Source of the DNA: Oribacterium sp. UBA3737 | GTDB lineage: Bacteria; Bacillota_A; Clostridia; Lachnospirales; Lachnospiraceae | Length of the DNA: 6,761 nucleotides | Direction of reading: 5' to 3' | Assembly: GCA_002371295.1 (NCBI GenBank) | Contig: DFGZ01000315.1 | Location: 1-6,761, forward strand | Shown here: piece after piece, positions 765 to 6,651 of the stretch | Layout: each line of letters starts with the position of its first letter | Numbering within the stretch: the first letter of the stretch is position 1 | Translations under genes and position numbers: made by a program | Notes under the pieces: generated by a model | Database searches by the model: none | Seen by the model: the letters and a program-made list of their open reading frames with translations, nothing else | What the model was told of the DNA's origin: nothing

Positions 765-1178
765 CTATTTCTTCTGACAGTCTTCACATTTTCCTATAAT
801 GATGGATTTGGATGCGTTGATATCCAGTCCGTAGATGGAATGCAGCTTATCCTCAAATTCATCCATAAACGGATTTTCGAGATGAAATACCTTTCCGCAC
901 TCACTGCACTGGGCATGCATATGCGTATCACAGTGCTCATGCTCCTCCGAGTACTGATAGAACCATGCATCCTGATTCGGTTCCTTAAAGCGGAGCAGAC
1001 TACCCTGCTCACACAGCCGGTCCAGATTCCTGTAGACCGTAGCCCGGTTGACATTCTCCTGCTCACAGACGGATGCATAGATCTCCCGCGCAGTAAATCT
1101 CTTATCCTTATGCTCCTTCAGATAGCCAATGATCAGTTCTCTTGCCTTTGTTTTATAGGTCTGCTTTCCCTTATCCAT
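765..1178 (-). CDS. Fur-family metal-dependent transcriptional repressor, probably Zur-like
   Basis: A 137-residue protein of normal length for the family. The N-terminal winged helix-turn-helix is at about 12-62, with FTAREIYASV and the recognition helix NRATVYRNLDRL. The C-terminal dimerisation domain carries a His/Cys cluster (H80, H82, C83, H86, H88) and two CxxC pairs, CSEC (91-94) and CEDC (131-134), which in this family hold the structural zinc. The start is placed at 1178 because AGGCAGGTGATC, an excellent match to the 16S anti-SD, lies immediately upstream; a Met ten codons earlier (1208) has no ribosome site and would sit only a few nt from the predicted transcript start. The regulated metal is not decided by residues alone. 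The adjacent zinc-binding lipoprotein gene and palindromic boxes favour zinc, while Fur or PerR remain possible. Confidence 0.9.
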   Translation of the reverse strand: MDKGKQTYKTKARELIIGYLKEHKDKRFTAREIYASVCEQENVNRATVYRNLDRLCEQGSLLRFKEPNQDAWFYQYSEEHEHCDTHMHAQCSECGKVFHLENPFMDEFEDKLHSIYGLDINASKSIIIGKCEDCQKK

Positions 1179-1219
1179 CAGATCACCTGCCTCAAATCCA
1201 CGATACATGAAACATAGTC

Positions 1220-1249
1220 ATTCTATCATTCCGGATCCGGAAATGTCAA
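1220..1249 (-). promoter_or_regulatory. Promoter of the Fur-family gene with a palindrome in the spacer
   Basis: On the minus strand, TTGACA (1249-1244) and TAGAAT (1225-1220) are separated by 18 bp. The predicted start near 1213 gives a leader of about 35 nt to the ATG at 1178. The spacer contains TTCCGGATCCGGAA (1229-1242), a perfect 14-bp palindrome that lies between the two hexamers and could be an operator. Confidence 0.7.
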
Positions 1250-1257
1250 AAGATTTA

Positions 1258-1301
1258 GAGTATCACAGGAGCATTACGGGAGCATCACCTGAGTATCATC
1301 C
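1258..1301. repeat. Four 11-bp imperfect tandem repeats upstream of the Fur-family promoter
   Basis: Units start at 1258, 1269, 1280 and 1291: GAGTATCACAG, GAGCATTACGG, GAGCATCACCT, GAGTATCATCC. The consensus is GAG(C/T)AT(C/T)A followed by three variable bases. The period is exactly 11 bp, about one helical turn, and the array ends 8 bp upstream of the -35 hexamer. The last unit overlaps the stop codon of the membrane-protein gene. Confidence 0.7.
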
Positions 1302-2030
1302 AAATGTGATCACTGCTAGGATCCACACATAACACAGGGTTTTCGGTATCATCAGCATACCAAGCTTCGGACGCAACTTCCCATAGACCGCGACGGGAAG
1401 ATAGGTAAGAAAACTAAGGATCACCGCAAGAATGATCTGTATATAGATTCCGGTCCCATAATTCATTGCATGGCTGATCACCCGGAGATAACCGATGATC
1501 GTAAGGATCCCAATGAGTACAAAAGGCAGATTCCGGATCCACGCCCACTTTACGCTGCCCTCCGAAGAAAACCACCTGTTCTGCGGGAAGAGAAGCAGGA
1601 TGATCCGGATCACAGTGAGCCAGAGGATCGCCTGTTCTACCCAGAGATTATATGCCGCCGTCTGAGTGTCTGTCCCGACATGGTATTCCATGGAATCACC
1701 GACTCTGATCAGGATGTTGTAGAAAAGCGTCATCGTAATGGAAGAAATGAGATTCCCAAGTCCAAGGAAGAACCCCTGCTGCGATATACTTCCACGCAGA
1801 TTCACCATGATCCGAGGAACAAGGTGAAAGGAATCACCCACCAGAAGAAGGAGTGTCAGCAGAAAGCCTAAGAAATACCGCGGACGTTCCGTGTTCATAA
1901 CGGGATCCCCATCGGCAACACCCCATTTCTCCTTCAGTATAAAGATAAAGATGACCAATGTAAGTAGATAGAGGATGCAAAAACCTGCTTCCCCGAGTCT
2001 AGCACCTAAAGTTTTTTCATTCTCTTTCAT
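1296..2030 (-). CDS. Polytopic membrane protein of unknown function, about seven helices
   Basis: A 244-residue protein that I do not recognise. The ATG at 2030 is preceded by AAGAGGG with 8 nt spacing. Hydrophobic segments suitable for membrane spanning lie at about 15-33, 52-71, 86-108, 130-148, 167-185, 194-215 and 226-243, so about seven helices, with Arg/Lys-rich loops (RLGEAG, PRIMVNLRG, GKLRPK) between some of them. No signal peptide, ATPase motif, or clear catalytic or substrate motif is visible. It is on the same strand as the Fur-family gene, but that gene has its own promoter and no shared operon is evident. A transporter or sensor role would be a guess. As the chromosomal gene at the left edge of the inserted element, it is probably part of the core genome. 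Confidence 0.8.
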   Translation of the reverse strand: MKENEKTLGARLGEAGFCILYLLTLVIFIFILKEKWGVADGDPVMNTERPRYFLGFLLTLLLLVGDSFHLVPRIMVNLRGSISQQGFFLGLGNLISSITMTLFYNILIRVGDSMEYHVGTDTQTAAYNLWVEQAILWLTVIRIILLLFPQNRWFSSEGSVKWAWIRNLPFVLIGILTIIGYLRVISHAMNYGTGIYIQIILAVILSFLTYLPVAVYGKLRPKLGMLMIPKTLCYVWILAVITFG

Positions 2031-2053
2031 TGCAGTTTCCCTCTTTCAGGATC

Positions 2054-2067
2054 CGGTATGGATACCG
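2054..2067. promoter_or_regulatory. Inverted repeat in the leader of the membrane-protein gene
   Basis: CGGTATGGATACCG is a perfect 6-2-6 inverted repeat, 24 bp upstream of the ATG at 2030 and between the putative promoter and the ribosome site. It could be a small operator or an RNA hairpin. Function is unknown. Confidence 0.35.
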
Positions 2068-2112
2068 ACCATCATCTCACAACCATTGTAACACACTCCT
2101 CCACCGGCGACC

Positions 2113-2140
2113 ATTCTATTTCCCTTCTTCGTTCTGTCAG
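2113..2140 (-). promoter_or_regulatory. Putative promoter of the membrane-protein gene
   Basis: On the minus strand, CTGACA (2140-2135) and TAGAAT (2118-2113) are 16 bp apart. The leader to the ATG at 2030 would be about 75 nt. A TACAAT closer to the gene lacks a good -35. This is a moderate match only. Confidence 0.45.
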
Positions 2141-2177
2141 ATACACATACCCCTTGCGAAAAAAATATCGATGACAG

Positions 2178-2221
2178 AAAAAAGAGCCGCAAACCCCGGA
2201 ATTTCTCAGGGGTTGCAGCTC
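2178..2221 (-). terminator. Original tRNA-Leu terminator, now separated from its tRNA
   Basis: On the minus strand GAGC, TTGC and CCCC arms (2221-2206) pair with GGGG, GC and GCTC arms (2197-2184), followed by a T run (plus As at 2178-2183). It follows the 3'-end remnant of tRNA-Leu at 2229-2250. It presumably terminated that tRNA before the element was inserted, and may now stop transcription leaving the toxin genes. Confidence 0.75.
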
Positions 2222-2228
2222 ATGCACA

Positions 2229-2250
2229 GTGCCGGCGACCGGGATCGAAC
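2229..2250 (-). repeat. Left attachment site (tRNA-Leu 3'-end remnant)
   Basis: These 22 bp are identical to 6527-6548 and cover the tRNA segment from the T-loop (GTTCGATC) through the acceptor 3' strand CGCCGGC, the discriminator A and the next base. The match ends abruptly at 2251, so this is a duplicated end and not a functional tRNA. A 7-bp inverted pair, CCGGCGA (2232-2238) and TCGCCGG (2258-2264), spans the border. Confidence 0.85.
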
Positions 2251-2306
2251 ATCCTAATCGCCGGAAAACCCTTACGGAAAGGAGGTTCGCTGACCTCGCC
2301 TAAATC

Positions 2307-2330
2307 TTGAACCACTTTTTGAACCACTTT
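2307..2330 (+). repeat. Tandem 12-bp repeat, candidate left arm-type integrase sites
   Basis: TTGAACCACTTT occurs twice in perfect tandem (2307-2318 and 2319-2330). A related pair with the same GAACCA core and the same orientation is at 6448-6467. Each pair is 56-60 bp from its attachment core. Paired direct repeats flanking the core are typical arm-type sites of tyrosine integrases. Apart from this, 2251-2409 shows only a weak GAGGT/ACCTC hairpin (2282-2297) and no gene. Confidence 0.55.
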
Positions 2331-2409
2331 CGCGCGGTTACTTTCTACATATACTTTGTATAGCGAGTCTCACTTCAAAATAATCCATTTCCCAGCTCGG
2401 TCTGATCCC

Positions 2410-2958
2410 TCACGCCGGATACCAATTTGGAATATGAGATGATACTCTTACACATACACCATTTTTATAGATTGCAAATCGTCTGAACGCATCAGTATTA
2501 TCGTATATCGCCACGACATCGCATACCGGCAATACCATTTTAAGTTTTTTCATACTCTCCACATACCGTCTTTCAATGTCCTCATCCGGTATGCCATGGC
2601 CTCCATGCATAACCCTGCTTTTGACGCGTTCTTTTGCTATATCTGCACTATCTAATCCAACATAGTGCATCTCAATGCTATAACCAAGACTTTTTGCTCT
2701 TCTTATATTTTGAATGATACTCTTCCCGCAAAGGGTCGTCTCCTGACTAAAAGAAACTCCTTCAGCAAAAAACCTATCAATACGGGATATTATTATTCTT
2801 CCGGCGGACAATACATCTTTTGGATTTCGCCAGTCACCTATCTCCCTTACTGTTTCGTCAAGATTTACCTTTTCAATCTCCGATAAAGACGAAATCAGAG
2901 AGAAGAGAGTTGACTTTCCTGCTCCATTTACTCCCGCCAACAAAACGTACTTTTTCAT
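2410..2958 (-). CDS. Zeta-toxin-family P-loop kinase, putative toxin
   Basis: A 182-residue P-loop kinase-like protein. Walker A is GVNGAGKST (9-17). VNLDE (31-35) supplies the acidic residue expected near the substrate. FSQETTL (70-76) and RVKSRVMHGGHGIPDEDIERRY (111-132), with the GGHxIP...RR signature, match the zeta-toxin/PezT group, whose characterised members phosphorylate UDP-N-acetylglucosamine and so block cell-wall synthesis. All visible core motifs are intact. The ATG at 2958 shares its A with the TGA of the upstream small gene (TGATG), so the two are translationally coupled, as in antitoxin-first modules. No canonical epsilon or PezA partner is visible. The kinase is shorter than classic zeta (about 280 residues) but similar to compact relatives, and a non-toxic small-molecule kinase of the same fold cannot be excluded. 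The gene looks AT-richer than the chromosomal flank, consistent with transfer. Confidence 0.85.
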   Translation of the reverse strand: MKKYVLLAGVNGAGKSTLFSLISSLSEIEKVNLDETVREIGDWRNPKDVLSAGRIIISRIDRFFAEGVSFSQETTLCGKSIIQNIRRAKSLGYSIEMHYVGLDSADIAKERVKSRVMHGGHGIPDEDIERRYVESMKKLKMVLPVCDVVAIYDNTDAFRRFAIYKNGVCVRVSSHIPNWYPA

Positions 2959-3137
2959 CAGAACACGTTCCTCGCGATAGATTCCTTTTGTTTTTTCTGT
3001 AGGAGATAATCACCTATCATTTCGTAGAATTCTTTTTCCTCCTCTGATTCAGATTCCAGAACAAGTTGCATGGTATCATCCGGATCTAACTTGCTAATTT
3101 CCGCATAGATGTCGCTATACTTTTTTACATCACACAT
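2958..3137 (-). CDS. Small acidic protein, candidate antitoxin of the zeta-like kinase
   Basis: A 59-residue protein that I do not recognise by family. It begins MCDVKKYSDIYAEISKLDPD, has a strongly acidic middle (ESESEEEKEFYE, 28-39) and a basic tail (QKKQKES). It is probably mostly helical, and no helix-turn-helix or ribbon-helix-helix DNA-binding motif is obvious. The ATG at 3137 is preferred because GGTGAGG ends 8 nt upstream; an in-frame GTG at 3146 overlaps that site badly. Its stop overlaps the kinase start by one base. Position, size, charge and coupling suggest an antitoxin that neutralises the kinase by direct contact, as epsilon does for zeta, but this is inference from context only. 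Confidence 0.7.
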   Translation of the reverse strand: MCDVKKYSDIYAEISKLDPDDTMQLVLESESEEEKEFYEMIGDYLLQKKQKESIARNVF

Positions 3138-3176
3138 ACGAAACACCTCACCTTCTGTTTTCAGTGTCTTTTTAAT

Positions 3177-3204
3177 ATTATACTCTTCCCGTTTCTTAAA
3201 GCAA
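3177..3204 (-). promoter_or_regulatory. Promoter of the antitoxin-kinase operon
   Basis: On the minus strand a perfect TATAAT (3182-3177) is preceded at 16 bp by TTGCTT (3204-3199), a weak -35. The transcript would start near 3170, about 33 nt before the ATG at 3137. An inverted repeat ATTATG...CATAAT (3227-3246) lies upstream. The pair is therefore transcribed independently of the helicase gene, which ends at 3281. Confidence 0.6.
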
Positions 3205-3280
3205 TCCTTAATTGCACTGCATACCGATTATGACACAGCCCATAATTCGCTATTCAAAATGGCTCAAACCCTTATTATGC

Positions 3281-5476
3281 TTATTCCGCCAACATCTCAT
3301 TTGTTATAGCCAACAATTCCGCCGCGACTTCTTCATTTCTCACTCGAAGCAGATTATCATAAACGTCTGCCTTTCCCAGCAGATTCATTCCTCCGTGCCA
3401 AACCAATTTCCTGTCAATCACAGCAAAACGCTCTCCTTCAGAATCTGTTAAGCGAACCATAATCCCCGCAATCTTCATTTCACTTACCATAGCTTCGATA
3501 TCTCCGATATCTCCGAATAAAGCAACCTCCGGGTCCATGGTGATTACAATAACAGAAACACCTGCTTCCTGCCTGCTCTTCAGCAGACTGATCAATCGTT
3601 CAACCTTCGACCGTTGAAGTCCCGGACTGGAGATTATGATCTCATTATCAGCCTCAACCAAATCTCTCTCAAATGTTTCCGTATACTCCAGCCCGTCATA
3701 TATGGCATTGGTCTGCTGCTTATCAGGGATTCCCTCAGAAATCACCTGATACCCAAGTTTTTTATATGTTTTCAATCTGCTGCGGTACTGCCCATCAAAG
3801 AATGAAATATGAGAATCCACATAATCGTACACTATCACATCCGTCTTGCCTTCATAGATACGATTCAATCTTCCGACATATTGGATCACTCTGCCTTCAA
3901 AACGAATAGGCGCCGCCAACATTAATGTATCCAGCCGTGGGAAATTAAACCCTTCCCCGATCTTCTGTCCTGTAGCAATCAGGATCAGGCTTTCAGTTCG
4001 AGGAGTCTGTAGCATTTCCTCTACAACTGACTGATTTTGCTTCATCGACTGACCACCATAAATTAAGAAAACATGGTCTGCCTTCCCCTGAAGTAATTGG
4101 GAAAACAATTCCGCATGTCGCTTAAGTTTCGTCAGAATGACCGGCGTACGTCCAGCATGTATCGCCTGCTCTACATCTGCTACAATCTGCTCATTTCTGA
4201 ACTTATTATCCGCAACCAGATCATCCGCTTTATGTATATCCGGTTTATTTCCGGACAAATCAACCACTCTGGTAAATCTCGGGTACACATACCCCTTCAG
4301 GCCTTGTGACTCCGCTTGTTCCTTTGCTGTATACTTGTGACGCACCGGCCCCAAAAGCATATAAACAATCTCATCCAAATGATCACTGCGCCCCGGCGTT
4401 GCCGAAAGACCATAGATATATTTAGCACGGATCCGATTCATCAATGCCTGCGCCTGATTTGAACCCACATGATGGCATTCATCGACAAGTACCATCCCAT
4501 AGGAATCAATATGATCAAAGAATTCTCCCTTATGATATGCAGACCCGATCATTGCAAAATCAATAATCCCGGTCGTTTTATCTGTCCCGGATATCAGCGT
4601 TCCGATCACTCCGTCTCTTGTTTTTACTCTCCCTGTTTTTGTCTTATAAATTGGCAGCTTTTCGTCAATATCCAGAAACTTTTCAAATTCACTGATCCAT
4701 TGTGGCAACAGATCTGCCTTTTCAAGCAGAACCAGGGTACTGACCTTGCGCTTAGCCACCATATATGCCGCAAGAACGGTTTTTCCGAATGCAGTTGGCG
4801 CACATAGAATACCATTTTCATACTTTTCCAATTGCTCAGCAGCCAAACCCTGTTGATGTTTCAGTTCTCCTTTAAAATGCACACGAATCGGTCTTCCATG
4901 CAGTCGCTTGTCATATACGATACATTTTACTCCGGCTTCATTGCATTTTGCCTGCAACTTCTCTAAAAGACCAATTGGGACACGGATATATCCTTCTGAT
5001 TCTCTCCACATGGATATCGTTCTAAGATTATAATAATTTGAACGACCGATTGCTTTGTTCTTGTAATACTCCGGATTATCTATGGTGGCAAGACCTTTGA
5101 TCTGGTTTTGAATTCTGGGCAGAAGATTCAACGTATCAACGTATGCGCCGTCATCAAGGACAATGTGAAGTTCCTTTCCAACCACATCCGGTGCACTAAA
5201 ACGATCATTTCTTTTCCATGGGCGTATCTGCCCATTCTCTTTTGCATACTTCGTTGGCCGAATCATGGACATCTGTCCGGAGTTCCAATCCTGAAGATAA
5301 GTCTCCACTTCCTCCTTTGTCATTTTTTTTACCGACAACAGCTTTCCCCATTGGTCAGGGTATGCATTCCATGATTCATCAATAAATGCACTGTTTCCCT
5401 GCTTGAGTGCCCTCCCCTGAAGCGGAAGCGCCACCAGATTTCCCAGTTTGCTGAGCACATCCTGGGAAGGGTACAT
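3281..5476 (-). CDS. Superfamily-2 DEAH-like helicase with PLD-like C-terminus; TOTE-type primase-helicase lacking its primase half
   Basis: 731 residues from the first in-frame Met. Residues 1-50 (MYPSQDVLSKLGNLVALPLQ...YPDQW) resemble, from memory, the end of the archaeo-eukaryotic-type primase domain in TOTE conflict proteins. Residues 60-210 are the usual linker (IDNPEYYKNKA, YIRVPIGL, GRPIRVHFKGEL). The helicase core has motif I APTAFGKT (226-233), motif II DECH (332-335), motif III SAT (358-360), motif V GQKIGEGFNFPRLD (503-516) and motif VI QYVGRLNR (532-539), all intact, so ATPase activity is plausible. Residues 600-731 look like a phospholipase-D-type domain (IIISSPGLQRSKVERLISLL; RFAVIDRKLVWHGGMNLL), but the His of the HxK(R)x4D motif is Gly681. 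The Met at 5476 has no ribosome site and the frame stays open upstream to 5543 with LPSFKYYDR just before it, which also looks family-like. I infer a 5'-truncated gene, probably not expressed properly. Full-length relatives would be about 300 residues longer. Confidence 0.8.
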   Translation of the reverse strand: MYPSQDVLSKLGNLVALPLQGRALKQGNSAFIDESWNAYPDQWGKLLSVKKMTKEEVETYLQDWNSGQMSMIRPTKYAKENGQIRPWKRNDRFSAPDVVGKELHIVLDDGAYVDTLNLLPRIQNQIKGLATIDNPEYYKNKAIGRSNYYNLRTISMWRESEGYIRVPIGLLEKLQAKCNEAGVKCIVYDKRLHGRPIRVHFKGELKHQQGLAAEQLEKYENGILCAPTAFGKTVLAAYMVAKRKVSTLVLLEKADLLPQWISEFEKFLDIDEKLPIYKTKTGRVKTRDGVIGTLISGTDKTTGIIDFAMIGSAYHKGEFFDHIDSYGMVLVDECHHVGSNQAQALMNRIRAKYIYGLSATPGRSDHLDEIVYMLLGPVRHKYTAKEQAESQGLKGYVYPRFTRVVDLSGNKPDIHKADDLVADNKFRNEQIVADVEQAIHAGRTPVILTKLKRHAELFSQLLQGKADHVFLIYGGQSMKQNQSVVEEMLQTPRTESLILIATGQKIGEGFNFPRLDTLMLAAPIRFEGRVIQYVGRLNRIYEGKTDVIVYDYVDSHISFFDGQYRSRLKTYKKLGYQVISEGIPDKQQTNAIYDGLEYTETFERDLVEADNEIIISSPGLQRSKVERLISLLKSRQEAGVSVIVITMDPEVALFGDIGDIEAMVSEMKIAGIMVRLTDSEGERFAVIDRKLVWHGGMNLLGKADVYDNLLRVRNEEVAAELLAITNEMLAE

Positions 5477-5540
5477 ACGATCATAATACTTGAACGAAGG
5501 CAGATTTATGGATGATTGCGAAGATGCAGATCGAAAATAT
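5477..5540. other. Deletion junction between two 5'-truncated divergent genes
   Basis: The minus-strand helicase frame continues upstream of its first Met to a TGA at 5542-5540, and its last part (LPSFKYYDR, about 5477-5503) looks family-like. The plus-strand integrase frame opens after a TGA at 5491-5493. Homology-like sequence of the two genes therefore meets or overlaps within roughly 5495-5530, with no room for either native promoter, ribosome site or N-terminal domain. A single deletion is the simplest explanation. Confidence 0.6.
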
Positions 5541-6372
5541 CAGGAAAAAGGACATCAAGTACATGTTTGAACGGTGGACTGGTCCCGGACTCATCACAAG
5601 AAAGGTATTTGTGAATAGGAAGTCCGCGCTAAACGGTGTATTTACATATGCAGCCGAAAATGATTACATTCCAATTAACTTCATCCCCTCCATCGGAACT
5701 TCGGAACTAAAGTTCAAGGAACCGAATCACCGAAATAAGGCCTTTCGCAAGGATGAACGGCTGAAGCTTCTGCAGTATCTGAAGACACTTGATCAGGACG
5801 GCTATACACTGGCGATCCAGCTTGCCCTGTACTCCACCTTTCGTGTCGGAGAACTTCGGGCAATCCGATATGAGGATGTCTGTGGCAATACGCTTACCAT
5901 CCGGCACCAGCTTGTGGAGGAATCGCAGTACAGCGTAGATACCAGATTCATGAAGGTCACTAAGGCCCCCCGGTATGTAAATGAGAAGCTTCCCAAGGGA
6001 AATACGCATTTCTCAGTCAGAGAAATCCTGCTCGTTCCTGAAGCTGTCGCCATTATCCAGGAAGCCCATGCGCTCAATCCTGACGGAGAATATCTCTTCA
6101 TGTGTCATGGACGCGAGCTGAATAACGACACCTTCAATGAGCGTCTGCGGAAATACTGCACAGAAGCAGGAGTCCCCTATCTTTCCAGCCACAAGCTTCG
6201 TTTCACGGTTGCATCAACTCTCCGGGCCGCCGGCGTGGATTTGACCTATCTTCAGAAGACCTTAGGTCACTCCAACAGGGCCATGACAGAGCATTATATC
6301 TATGAAACTGTGGAGGAACCGGAAGATCTGGAGGGGCAGCTTGCCAATGCGCTCAGCATTCAGGGTGTATAA
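5512..6372 (+). CDS. Tyrosine recombinase (integrase), N-terminally truncated
   Basis: 286 residues ending at TAA 6370-6372. The catalytic domain is complete: R111 (TFRVGEL), K162 (LPKGNTHFSVREI), H227 and R230 (SSHKLR), H253 (LGHSN) and the nucleophile Y262 (TEHYIYET). The core-binding region is represented only by its second half (MQIENIRKKDIKYMFERW ... GVFTYAAENDYIPINFI, about 5-58). The arm-binding domain and first core-binding helices, expected in integrases of about 370-400 residues, are missing, and an in-frame stop at 5491-5493 excludes an earlier start. GAAGG lies 11 nt before the ATG, which is a poor site. The gene sits beside tRNA-Leu at the right end and presumably inserted the element there, cutting and joining DNA at the tRNA 3' end. 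In the present state it probably cannot bind arm sites or excise the element efficiently. Confidence 0.85.
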   Translation: MIAKMQIENIRKKDIKYMFERWTGPGLITRKVFVNRKSALNGVFTYAAENDYIPINFIPSIGTSELKFKEPNHRNKAFRKDERLKLLQYLKTLDQDGYTLAIQLALYSTFRVGELRAIRYEDVCGNTLTIRHQLVEESQYSVDTRFMKVTKAPRYVNEKLPKGNTHFSVREILLVPEAVAIIQEAHALNPDGEYLFMCHGRELNNDTFNERLRKYCTEAGVPYLSSHKLRFTVASTLRAAGVDLTYLQKTLGHSNRAMTEHYIYETVEEPEDLEGQLANALSIQGV

Positions 6373-6411
6373 TTATGCAGAAATTTGAATAGATCTTAGA
6401 ATCGCAAAAAG

Positions 6412-6445
6412 CCTAAAACCCCTTGTATTTACTGGGTTTTTAAGG
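6412..6445 (+). terminator. Hairpin after the integrase gene, probable terminator
   Basis: AAAACCC (6415-6421) pairs with GGGTTTT (6434-6440), extended by CCT/AGG with a bulge, 40 bp after the integrase stop. The plus-strand T run is partly inside the stem. The minus strand also has a T run after the hairpin (plus As at 6406-6410), so it may act in both directions. Confidence 0.55.
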
Positions 6446-6447
6446 TT

Positions 6448-6467
6448 TGAACCAAACTGAACCAAAT
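6448..6467 (+). repeat. TGAACCAAA repeat pair, candidate right arm-type integrase sites
   Basis: TGAACCAAAC (6448-6457) and TGAACCAAAT (6458-6467) are tandem 10-bp units that share the GAACCA core and orientation with the 12-bp pair at 2307-2330. The distance to the right attachment core is 59 bp, close to the 56 bp on the left. This fits paired integrase arm sites. Confidence 0.5.
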
Positions 6468-6471
6468 GAAT

Positions 6472-6512
6472 AAAAAGAAAAGGAGCCGCAAACCCAGATA
6501 AAATCTGGGCTC
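6472..6512 (-). terminator. tRNA-Leu terminator supplied by the element
   Basis: On the minus strand CCCAGAT (6509-6503) pairs with ATCTGGG (6499-6493) around a short loop, with GAGC/GCTC outside, followed by a T-rich tract (plus As at 6472-6480). It shares GAGCCGCAAACCC (6483-6495) with the chromosomal terminator at 2184-2196. The tRNA therefore keeps an equivalent terminator after insertion. Confidence 0.75.
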
Positions 6513-6526
6513 ACGACTCATCAGTT

Positions 6527-6548
6527 GTGCCGGCGACCGGGATCGAAC
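6527..6548 (-). repeat. Right attachment site inside tRNA-Leu
   Basis: Perfect 22-bp copy of 2229-2250. Here it forms the 3' part of a functional tRNA: T-loop, T-stem 3' strand, acceptor 3' strand, discriminator and one base beyond. The element thus supplies the tRNA 3' end and leaves the gene intact. Confidence 0.85.
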
Positions 6549-6613
6549 CGGTACGGGTATCGCTACCCACGGGATTTTAAGTCCCGGGCGTCTGCCAGTT
6601 CCGCCACGCCGGC
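6528..6613 (-). tRNA. tRNA-Leu (anticodon UAA)
   Basis: An 86-nt class II tRNA. The acceptor arms GCCGGCG (6613-6607) and CGCCGGC (6535-6529) pair perfectly, with discriminator A at 6528. The anticodon stem CGGGA/TCCCG holds the loop CTTAAAA, so the anticodon is TAA, reading UUA. The long variable arm (GGGTAGCGATACCC) and the T-arm ACCGG-TTCGATC-CCGGT are canonical. CCA is not encoded. It is the integration target of the adjacent element. Confidence 0.95.
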
Positions 6614-6622
6614 GTATGTGTC

Positions 6623-6651
6623 ATTATAATGTTACCTCAAAAAAAATACAA
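6623..6651 (-). promoter_or_regulatory. Promoter of tRNA-Leu
   Basis: On the minus strand TTGTAT (6651-6646) and TATAAT (6628-6623) are 17 bp apart. The predicted start is only a few nt before the mature tRNA 5' end at 6613. The -35 hexamer overlaps the terminator hairpin of the upstream tRNA-Asp. Confidence 0.7.

Follow-up and report, generated by a model that had tools for sequence, protein, structure and literature searches.

A primase-helicase gene and an integrase gene truncated at a single junction in a tRNA-Leu island: a probable relic of deletion

The window analysed here, i.e. the whole stretch of 6761 bases, carries a small island in which two facing genes, one for a primase-helicase and one for a tyrosine integrase, have both lost their 5' ends. 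Judging from the relatives of its genes, the host would be of the Lachnospiraceae type and probably a gut bacterium. One deletion is the best explanation for the two losses, since they meet at about position 5515. Very probably this was a recent single deletion that cut both genes, which would make the primase-helicase gene a pseudogene and leave the island most likely immobile. The preliminary description had offered two readings of the helicase gene, an inactivated system or a working derivative; inactivation is the likelier of the two, given that one junction cuts the integrase short as well and deprives both genes of their start regions. Neither the truncation of the integrase nor the directly repeated copies of the tRNA-Leu 3' end on either side of the island figured in that description.

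The primase-helicase ORF (3281-5476, minus strand) encodes 731 aa and consists of an SF2 helicase core and a C-terminal PLD-like region, with Pfam matches to the end of the AEP-TOTE domain followed by the helicase domains ResIII and DEAD. Its residues 1-59 correspond to positions 169-229 of the 230 in the AEP-TOTE profile PF22548 (63.6 bits, cut-off 27, E 2.7e-17), and together with the frame upstream they form a leftover C-terminal edge of an AEP primase domain at 5300-5515 on the minus strand, equivalent to residues 241 to about 312 of the best database relative by Pfam and alignment. This relative (P0001, 984 aa) matches the same profile from 4 to 229 of 230 with 246.5 bits. The 731-aa ORF equals residues 254-984 of P0001 with 729 of 731 residues identical, while over all 744 residues shared by P0001 and the window two differ, the identity beginning abruptly at residue 241. 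The in-frame SSINLPSFKYYDR peptide preceding the Met is also present in the P0001 alignment. The proposals that the first 50 residues are a C-terminal primase edge, that the open frame continues upstream of the Met and that homology to full-length relatives would begin in mid-domain are all borne out, and the similarity of these first residues to primase-helicases is clear.

The primase catalytic region, described earlier as missing, is indeed absent. We surveyed motifs in 114 full-length relatives, i.e. the best 120 listed homologues minus six shorter than 940 aa, and FDFD and GxGAHxW, which we take to be the primase catalytic motifs, are invariant in 114 of 114 (the residue after the first G of the latter being R in 97, K in 14 and another in 3); neither is found in the window frame. 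The four SF2 helicase motifs Walker A, DECHH, SAT and QYVGR are all kept in the window ORF. The PLD label has proved weak, since the window protein has no reported Pfam PLDc_2 match and that of a second relative (P0002) lies below the cut-off; for many of the best 120 listed homologues, though, the domain is precomputed. HxK(x4)D is the canonical PLD motif, and it is absent from the aligned stretch 934-955.

The first start codon of the frame is the ATG at 5476, and the frame is open to 5539 with no ATG, GTG or TTG upstream. This ATG aligns with residue 254 of P0001, and a Met stands at that place in all 77 relatives that could be assessed among 80 loci. That it is not preceded by a ribosome site, as first noted from the letters, agrees with the calculated anti-SD duplex of +0.6 kcal/mol. 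At the equivalent Met an SD of -5 kcal/mol or lower is found in none of the 77 relatives (median +0.6), and at the true start in 56 of 71 (median -6.5). The values for true starts are biased towards low energies, the most favourable site from -90 to +15 nt having been chosen in each case, and 105 of 520 random sites also attain -5. Since the Met is conserved in 77 of 77 and carries an SD in none, Met 5476 looks like an internal residue and not like a start with a ribosome site common to the homologues. For the same reason, database entries for short TOTE-type helicases that begin with MYPSQD are probably fragments. The first ATG of the Fur-family ORF in the window is also without SD (+0.2), so that a missing SD is no proof of silence, and a modest resemblance to an SD (-3.3) is seen for the truncated integrase. 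A sigma-70 scan gave no site within 450 nt upstream of either truncated ORF, which is a weak test, as the region holds 8 such sites against 8.9 expected.

The integrase (5512-6372, plus strand) faces the primase-helicase and keeps its catalytic domain (Phage_integrase PF00589 at residues 78-265), with about 144 N-terminal residues gone. Integrases of 427-428 aa (P0123, 427 aa; P0127) align with it from residue 145 onward, and in the closest one, a protein of 313 aa (P0121), two of 285 residues differ and the sequence extends upstream beyond the junction of the window. In the alignments, codon 241 of the primase-helicase is joined at 5510-5516 to an integrase codon equivalent to residue 145 of P0123; the homologies on the two sides come together at about 5515, and judging from the codons some 1-3 nt may be assigned to either side. 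In line with this, the DNA match of a host-family genome (G002) to the window spans 3310-5514 and stops there while the gene of that genome continues. An integrase of 295 aa from another lineage (P0122; 85% identity, 6 members, 4 contigs) begins near the same internal point, so that integrases of this short form may occur apart from the lesion in the window as well. Integrase relatives at E <= 1e-60 were found in 2 of 397 host-family genomes, at 41% and 45% identity, no more than 4 candidates being scored in each genome. At one locus (L002) an integrase and a full-length primase-helicase lie head-to-head 1.3 kb apart; this integrase is a distant one, found by the family HMM and missed by tblastn at 1e-5.

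We propose that one recent illegitimate deletion, guided by few matching bases at most, would have taken the integrase N-terminus, anything that lay between, the primase N-terminus and the start regions of both genes, and may also have taken an upstream defence-type partner gene. The primase-helicase would then no longer be made as a working protein, and since the integrase has been left without its N-terminal DNA-binding part, the island is most likely immobile. The size of the deletion and the original gene order can only be inferred, as the undeleted island was not found as DNA; protein scans of viral_contigs with the primase-helicase and with the integrase confirmed no relative. Given the near-identical intact copies of the genes, the window illustrates how a small tRNA island can lose its mobility gene together with defence-type cargo in one step.

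One alternative, which we regard as quite unlikely, is that the helicase and the PLD-like part are still functional without the primase, translated from Met 5476 or from another internal start. The helicase motifs are kept and the frame is open, the 731 retained codons having zero stops and zero frameshifts, which counts against a dead gene, but a very recent deletion would explain the openness too. Copies that are primase-less or have a broken primase recur (L064 below is one), and in a survey of short database forms (length filter <= ~772 aa; best 120 of 752 matches) 17 of the 120 listed begin at residue 254, the same Met. The remaining 103 start elsewhere, with projected starts from -7 to 467 of P0001. 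Such a scatter would arise if broken genes, or genes cut by a contig end, were annotated from whichever Met comes next, and many of these forms may be cut by contig ends. The spread of the starts over many positions, the lack of an SD there in the window and in the relatives, and the fact that the same lesion cuts the integrase all speak against a functional derivative, as does the intact full-length ORF in 67 of 80 kept loci. A helicase-only derivative that works has little support.

Broken relatives of the primase-helicase are not rare. The genome scan found 163 loci, of which 80 were kept; apart from the intact ORFs, 7 are interrupted within a contig and 6 are cut off by its end, and one of the 7 (L012) is doubtful, with only 39 residues missing at 237 nt from the contig end. 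Among the 397 host-family genomes, scored with at most 2 candidates each, a match at E <= 1e-80 occurs in 51. Of the 56 match rows, 30 run from residue 13 or lower to residue 955 or higher, and 3 of these 30 have one in-frame TGA. Four otherwise long relatives (L024, L042, L135, L136) carry one in-frame TGA each, and in three of the four this codon falls within a primase or helicase motif that is strongly conserved. A second primase-less copy, in Lachnoanaerobaculum gingivalis (L064, 7884-10184), begins at residue 215, and no N-terminus or primase match was found in the 7.9 kb upstream of it. Starts near 215-217 in this locus and in another genome (G293) had suggested that the gene was split by an insertion at residue 215; this was rejected, since a further apparent case (G098) is the same contig as L064 and the N-terminus in G293 (locus L139) lies in another frame, i.e. 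a frameshift. In yet another locus (L038, 2-1840), which touches the contig start, one ORF passes from residues 49-131 straight into 382-903 and has thereby lost the core of the primase in frame.

We consider it very unlikely that the junction is a chimera from assembly or amplification and that the genome carries intact genes. Near-identical intact counterparts are known from metagenomes, and the exact junction DNA was found zero times in viral_contigs, the sole collection searched for it. Against this, at most about 3 bases appear to be shared at the junction, probably less than an assembler would need for an overlap; the borders of the island and the two genes are arranged and oriented as a simple deletion would leave them, and the four residue differences in all against P0001 and P0121 suggest a different strain. 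Highly improbable, too, is the view that the primase is a costly part shed repeatedly, that helicase-only derivatives keep their function and that the window is a fresh example of this.

The reading as a deletion relic concerns an island of about 4.3 kb at 2251-6526, delimited by att repeats: the last 22 nt of tRNA-Leu are repeated at 2229-2250. The tRNA-Leu with anticodon TAA (6527-6613, minus strand; ARAGORN and Rfam tRNA) is the integration target, with one att copy of 22 nt at its 3' end (6527-6548, minus strand) and the identical displaced copy, detected by repeat search, at the far island end (2229-2250, minus strand). As for a tRNA-targeted integrative element, repeats are present at both borders; a complete integrase is lacking. 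A terminator-like hairpin of 17 pairs follows the tRNA-Leu (6483-6519, minus strand), found by a consensus scan that gave 4 such sites in the region against 3.3 expected. Besides the two truncated genes the main island ORFs are a zeta-toxin-like P-loop protein of 182 aa as cargo (2410-2958, minus strand; Pfam Zeta_toxin PF06414, E 1.2e-6) and an overlapping ORF of 62 aa with a GTG start (2958-3146, minus strand), known from ORF prediction alone and with no match in Pfam or NCBIfam, making four in all. The 62-aa ORF is a possible partner of the zeta-like gene. The two have joint DNA-level relatives in other host-family genomes (e.g. G255, G332 and G380). To the left of the island lie a ZnuA-type binding protein, the Fur-family regulator and one protein without family match.

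A comparable site exists in Butyrivibrio sp. XPD2006 (L013). Like the window, it has tRNA-Leu(TAA), 21 nt of the same att core and a primase-helicase oriented in the same way with respect to the tRNA; unlike the window, it has three att copies, the integrase search was negative in the locus and the gene is broken near residue 886. The att cores of 21 nt lie at 951, 5121 and 6604, in tRNA-Leu(TAA) and the sequence after it, and the primase-helicase, with its primase kept, lies between the first two. These att cores and this gene make tRNA-Leu(TAA) a site at which such islands have inserted in two lineages or more. A PBECR4-type gene is also present between the first two att cores of this locus (951-6628). 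By ARAGORN, a tRNA was found in 3 of the 80 loci only (L013, L046, L069), most relatives not being beside a tRNA within the stretch fetched.

Among the genes found upstream of intact relatives are DarT/DarG (L001), AbiEi/AbiEii (L008) and PBECR4 nucleases (L003 and, as above, L013), and Schlafen AlbA_2 proteins lie directly upstream in L007 and L020 and about 1.8 kb away in L003; most of these examples were picked by eye from 11 loci. In 51 of the 65 loci where this could be judged (it could not in 7 others), the first upstream ORF with 100 aa or more points in the same direction as the primase-helicase. The neighbourhood of the primase-helicase fits a defence-type one. The toxin or defence genes upstream in L001, L003, L007, L008 and L020 suggest a coupled module. 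Plasmid relatives are every one below 60% identity, and among 2112 matches in phage records none covers 80% of the query, the best 20 of the 2112 beginning at query residue 94 or later, outside the primase part. Four alphaproteobacterial plasmid relatives (L148, L149, L150, L151; about 34-35% identity) stand in mobile-element settings, one ending a TniB-TniQ-helicase run and three beside trios of tyrosine recombinases.

The TOTE conflict systems are named for TPR, OB, TBP and Effector, as stated in PMC12458937, which cites Aravind et al. 2022. The window shares with them the domain family that Pfam names after them, and the preliminary description's link to this family holds by the AEP-TOTE match; its conflict system is not supported, as no match to TPR, OB or TBP domains was found in the four main island ORFs (Pfam, E <= 0.001) or in 10 neighbour proteins from 7 relative loci. 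On these domain searches TOTE is here a domain-family name and not a proven system.

The window can also be compared with the CRISPR-associated PrimPol: residues 125-310 of P0001 match PDB 7nqd and 7nqf, labelled only 'TPR_REGION domain-containing protein', which we take to be this protein, and residues 125-334 match NCBIfam NF040561 with 98.6 bits, below the cut-off of 200, while the window ORF matches only the end of that family with 27.2 bits. The closest known kind are the Lachnospiraceae proteins with AEP-TOTE primase, SF2 helicase and PLD-like region (PF22548), with which the window shares the helicase and the C-terminal region, whereas residues 1-240, the primase motifs and the start site of the full-length proteins are missing from it. 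The window gene is in this respect most likely a relic of a known kind of primase-helicase, and it is not a new system.
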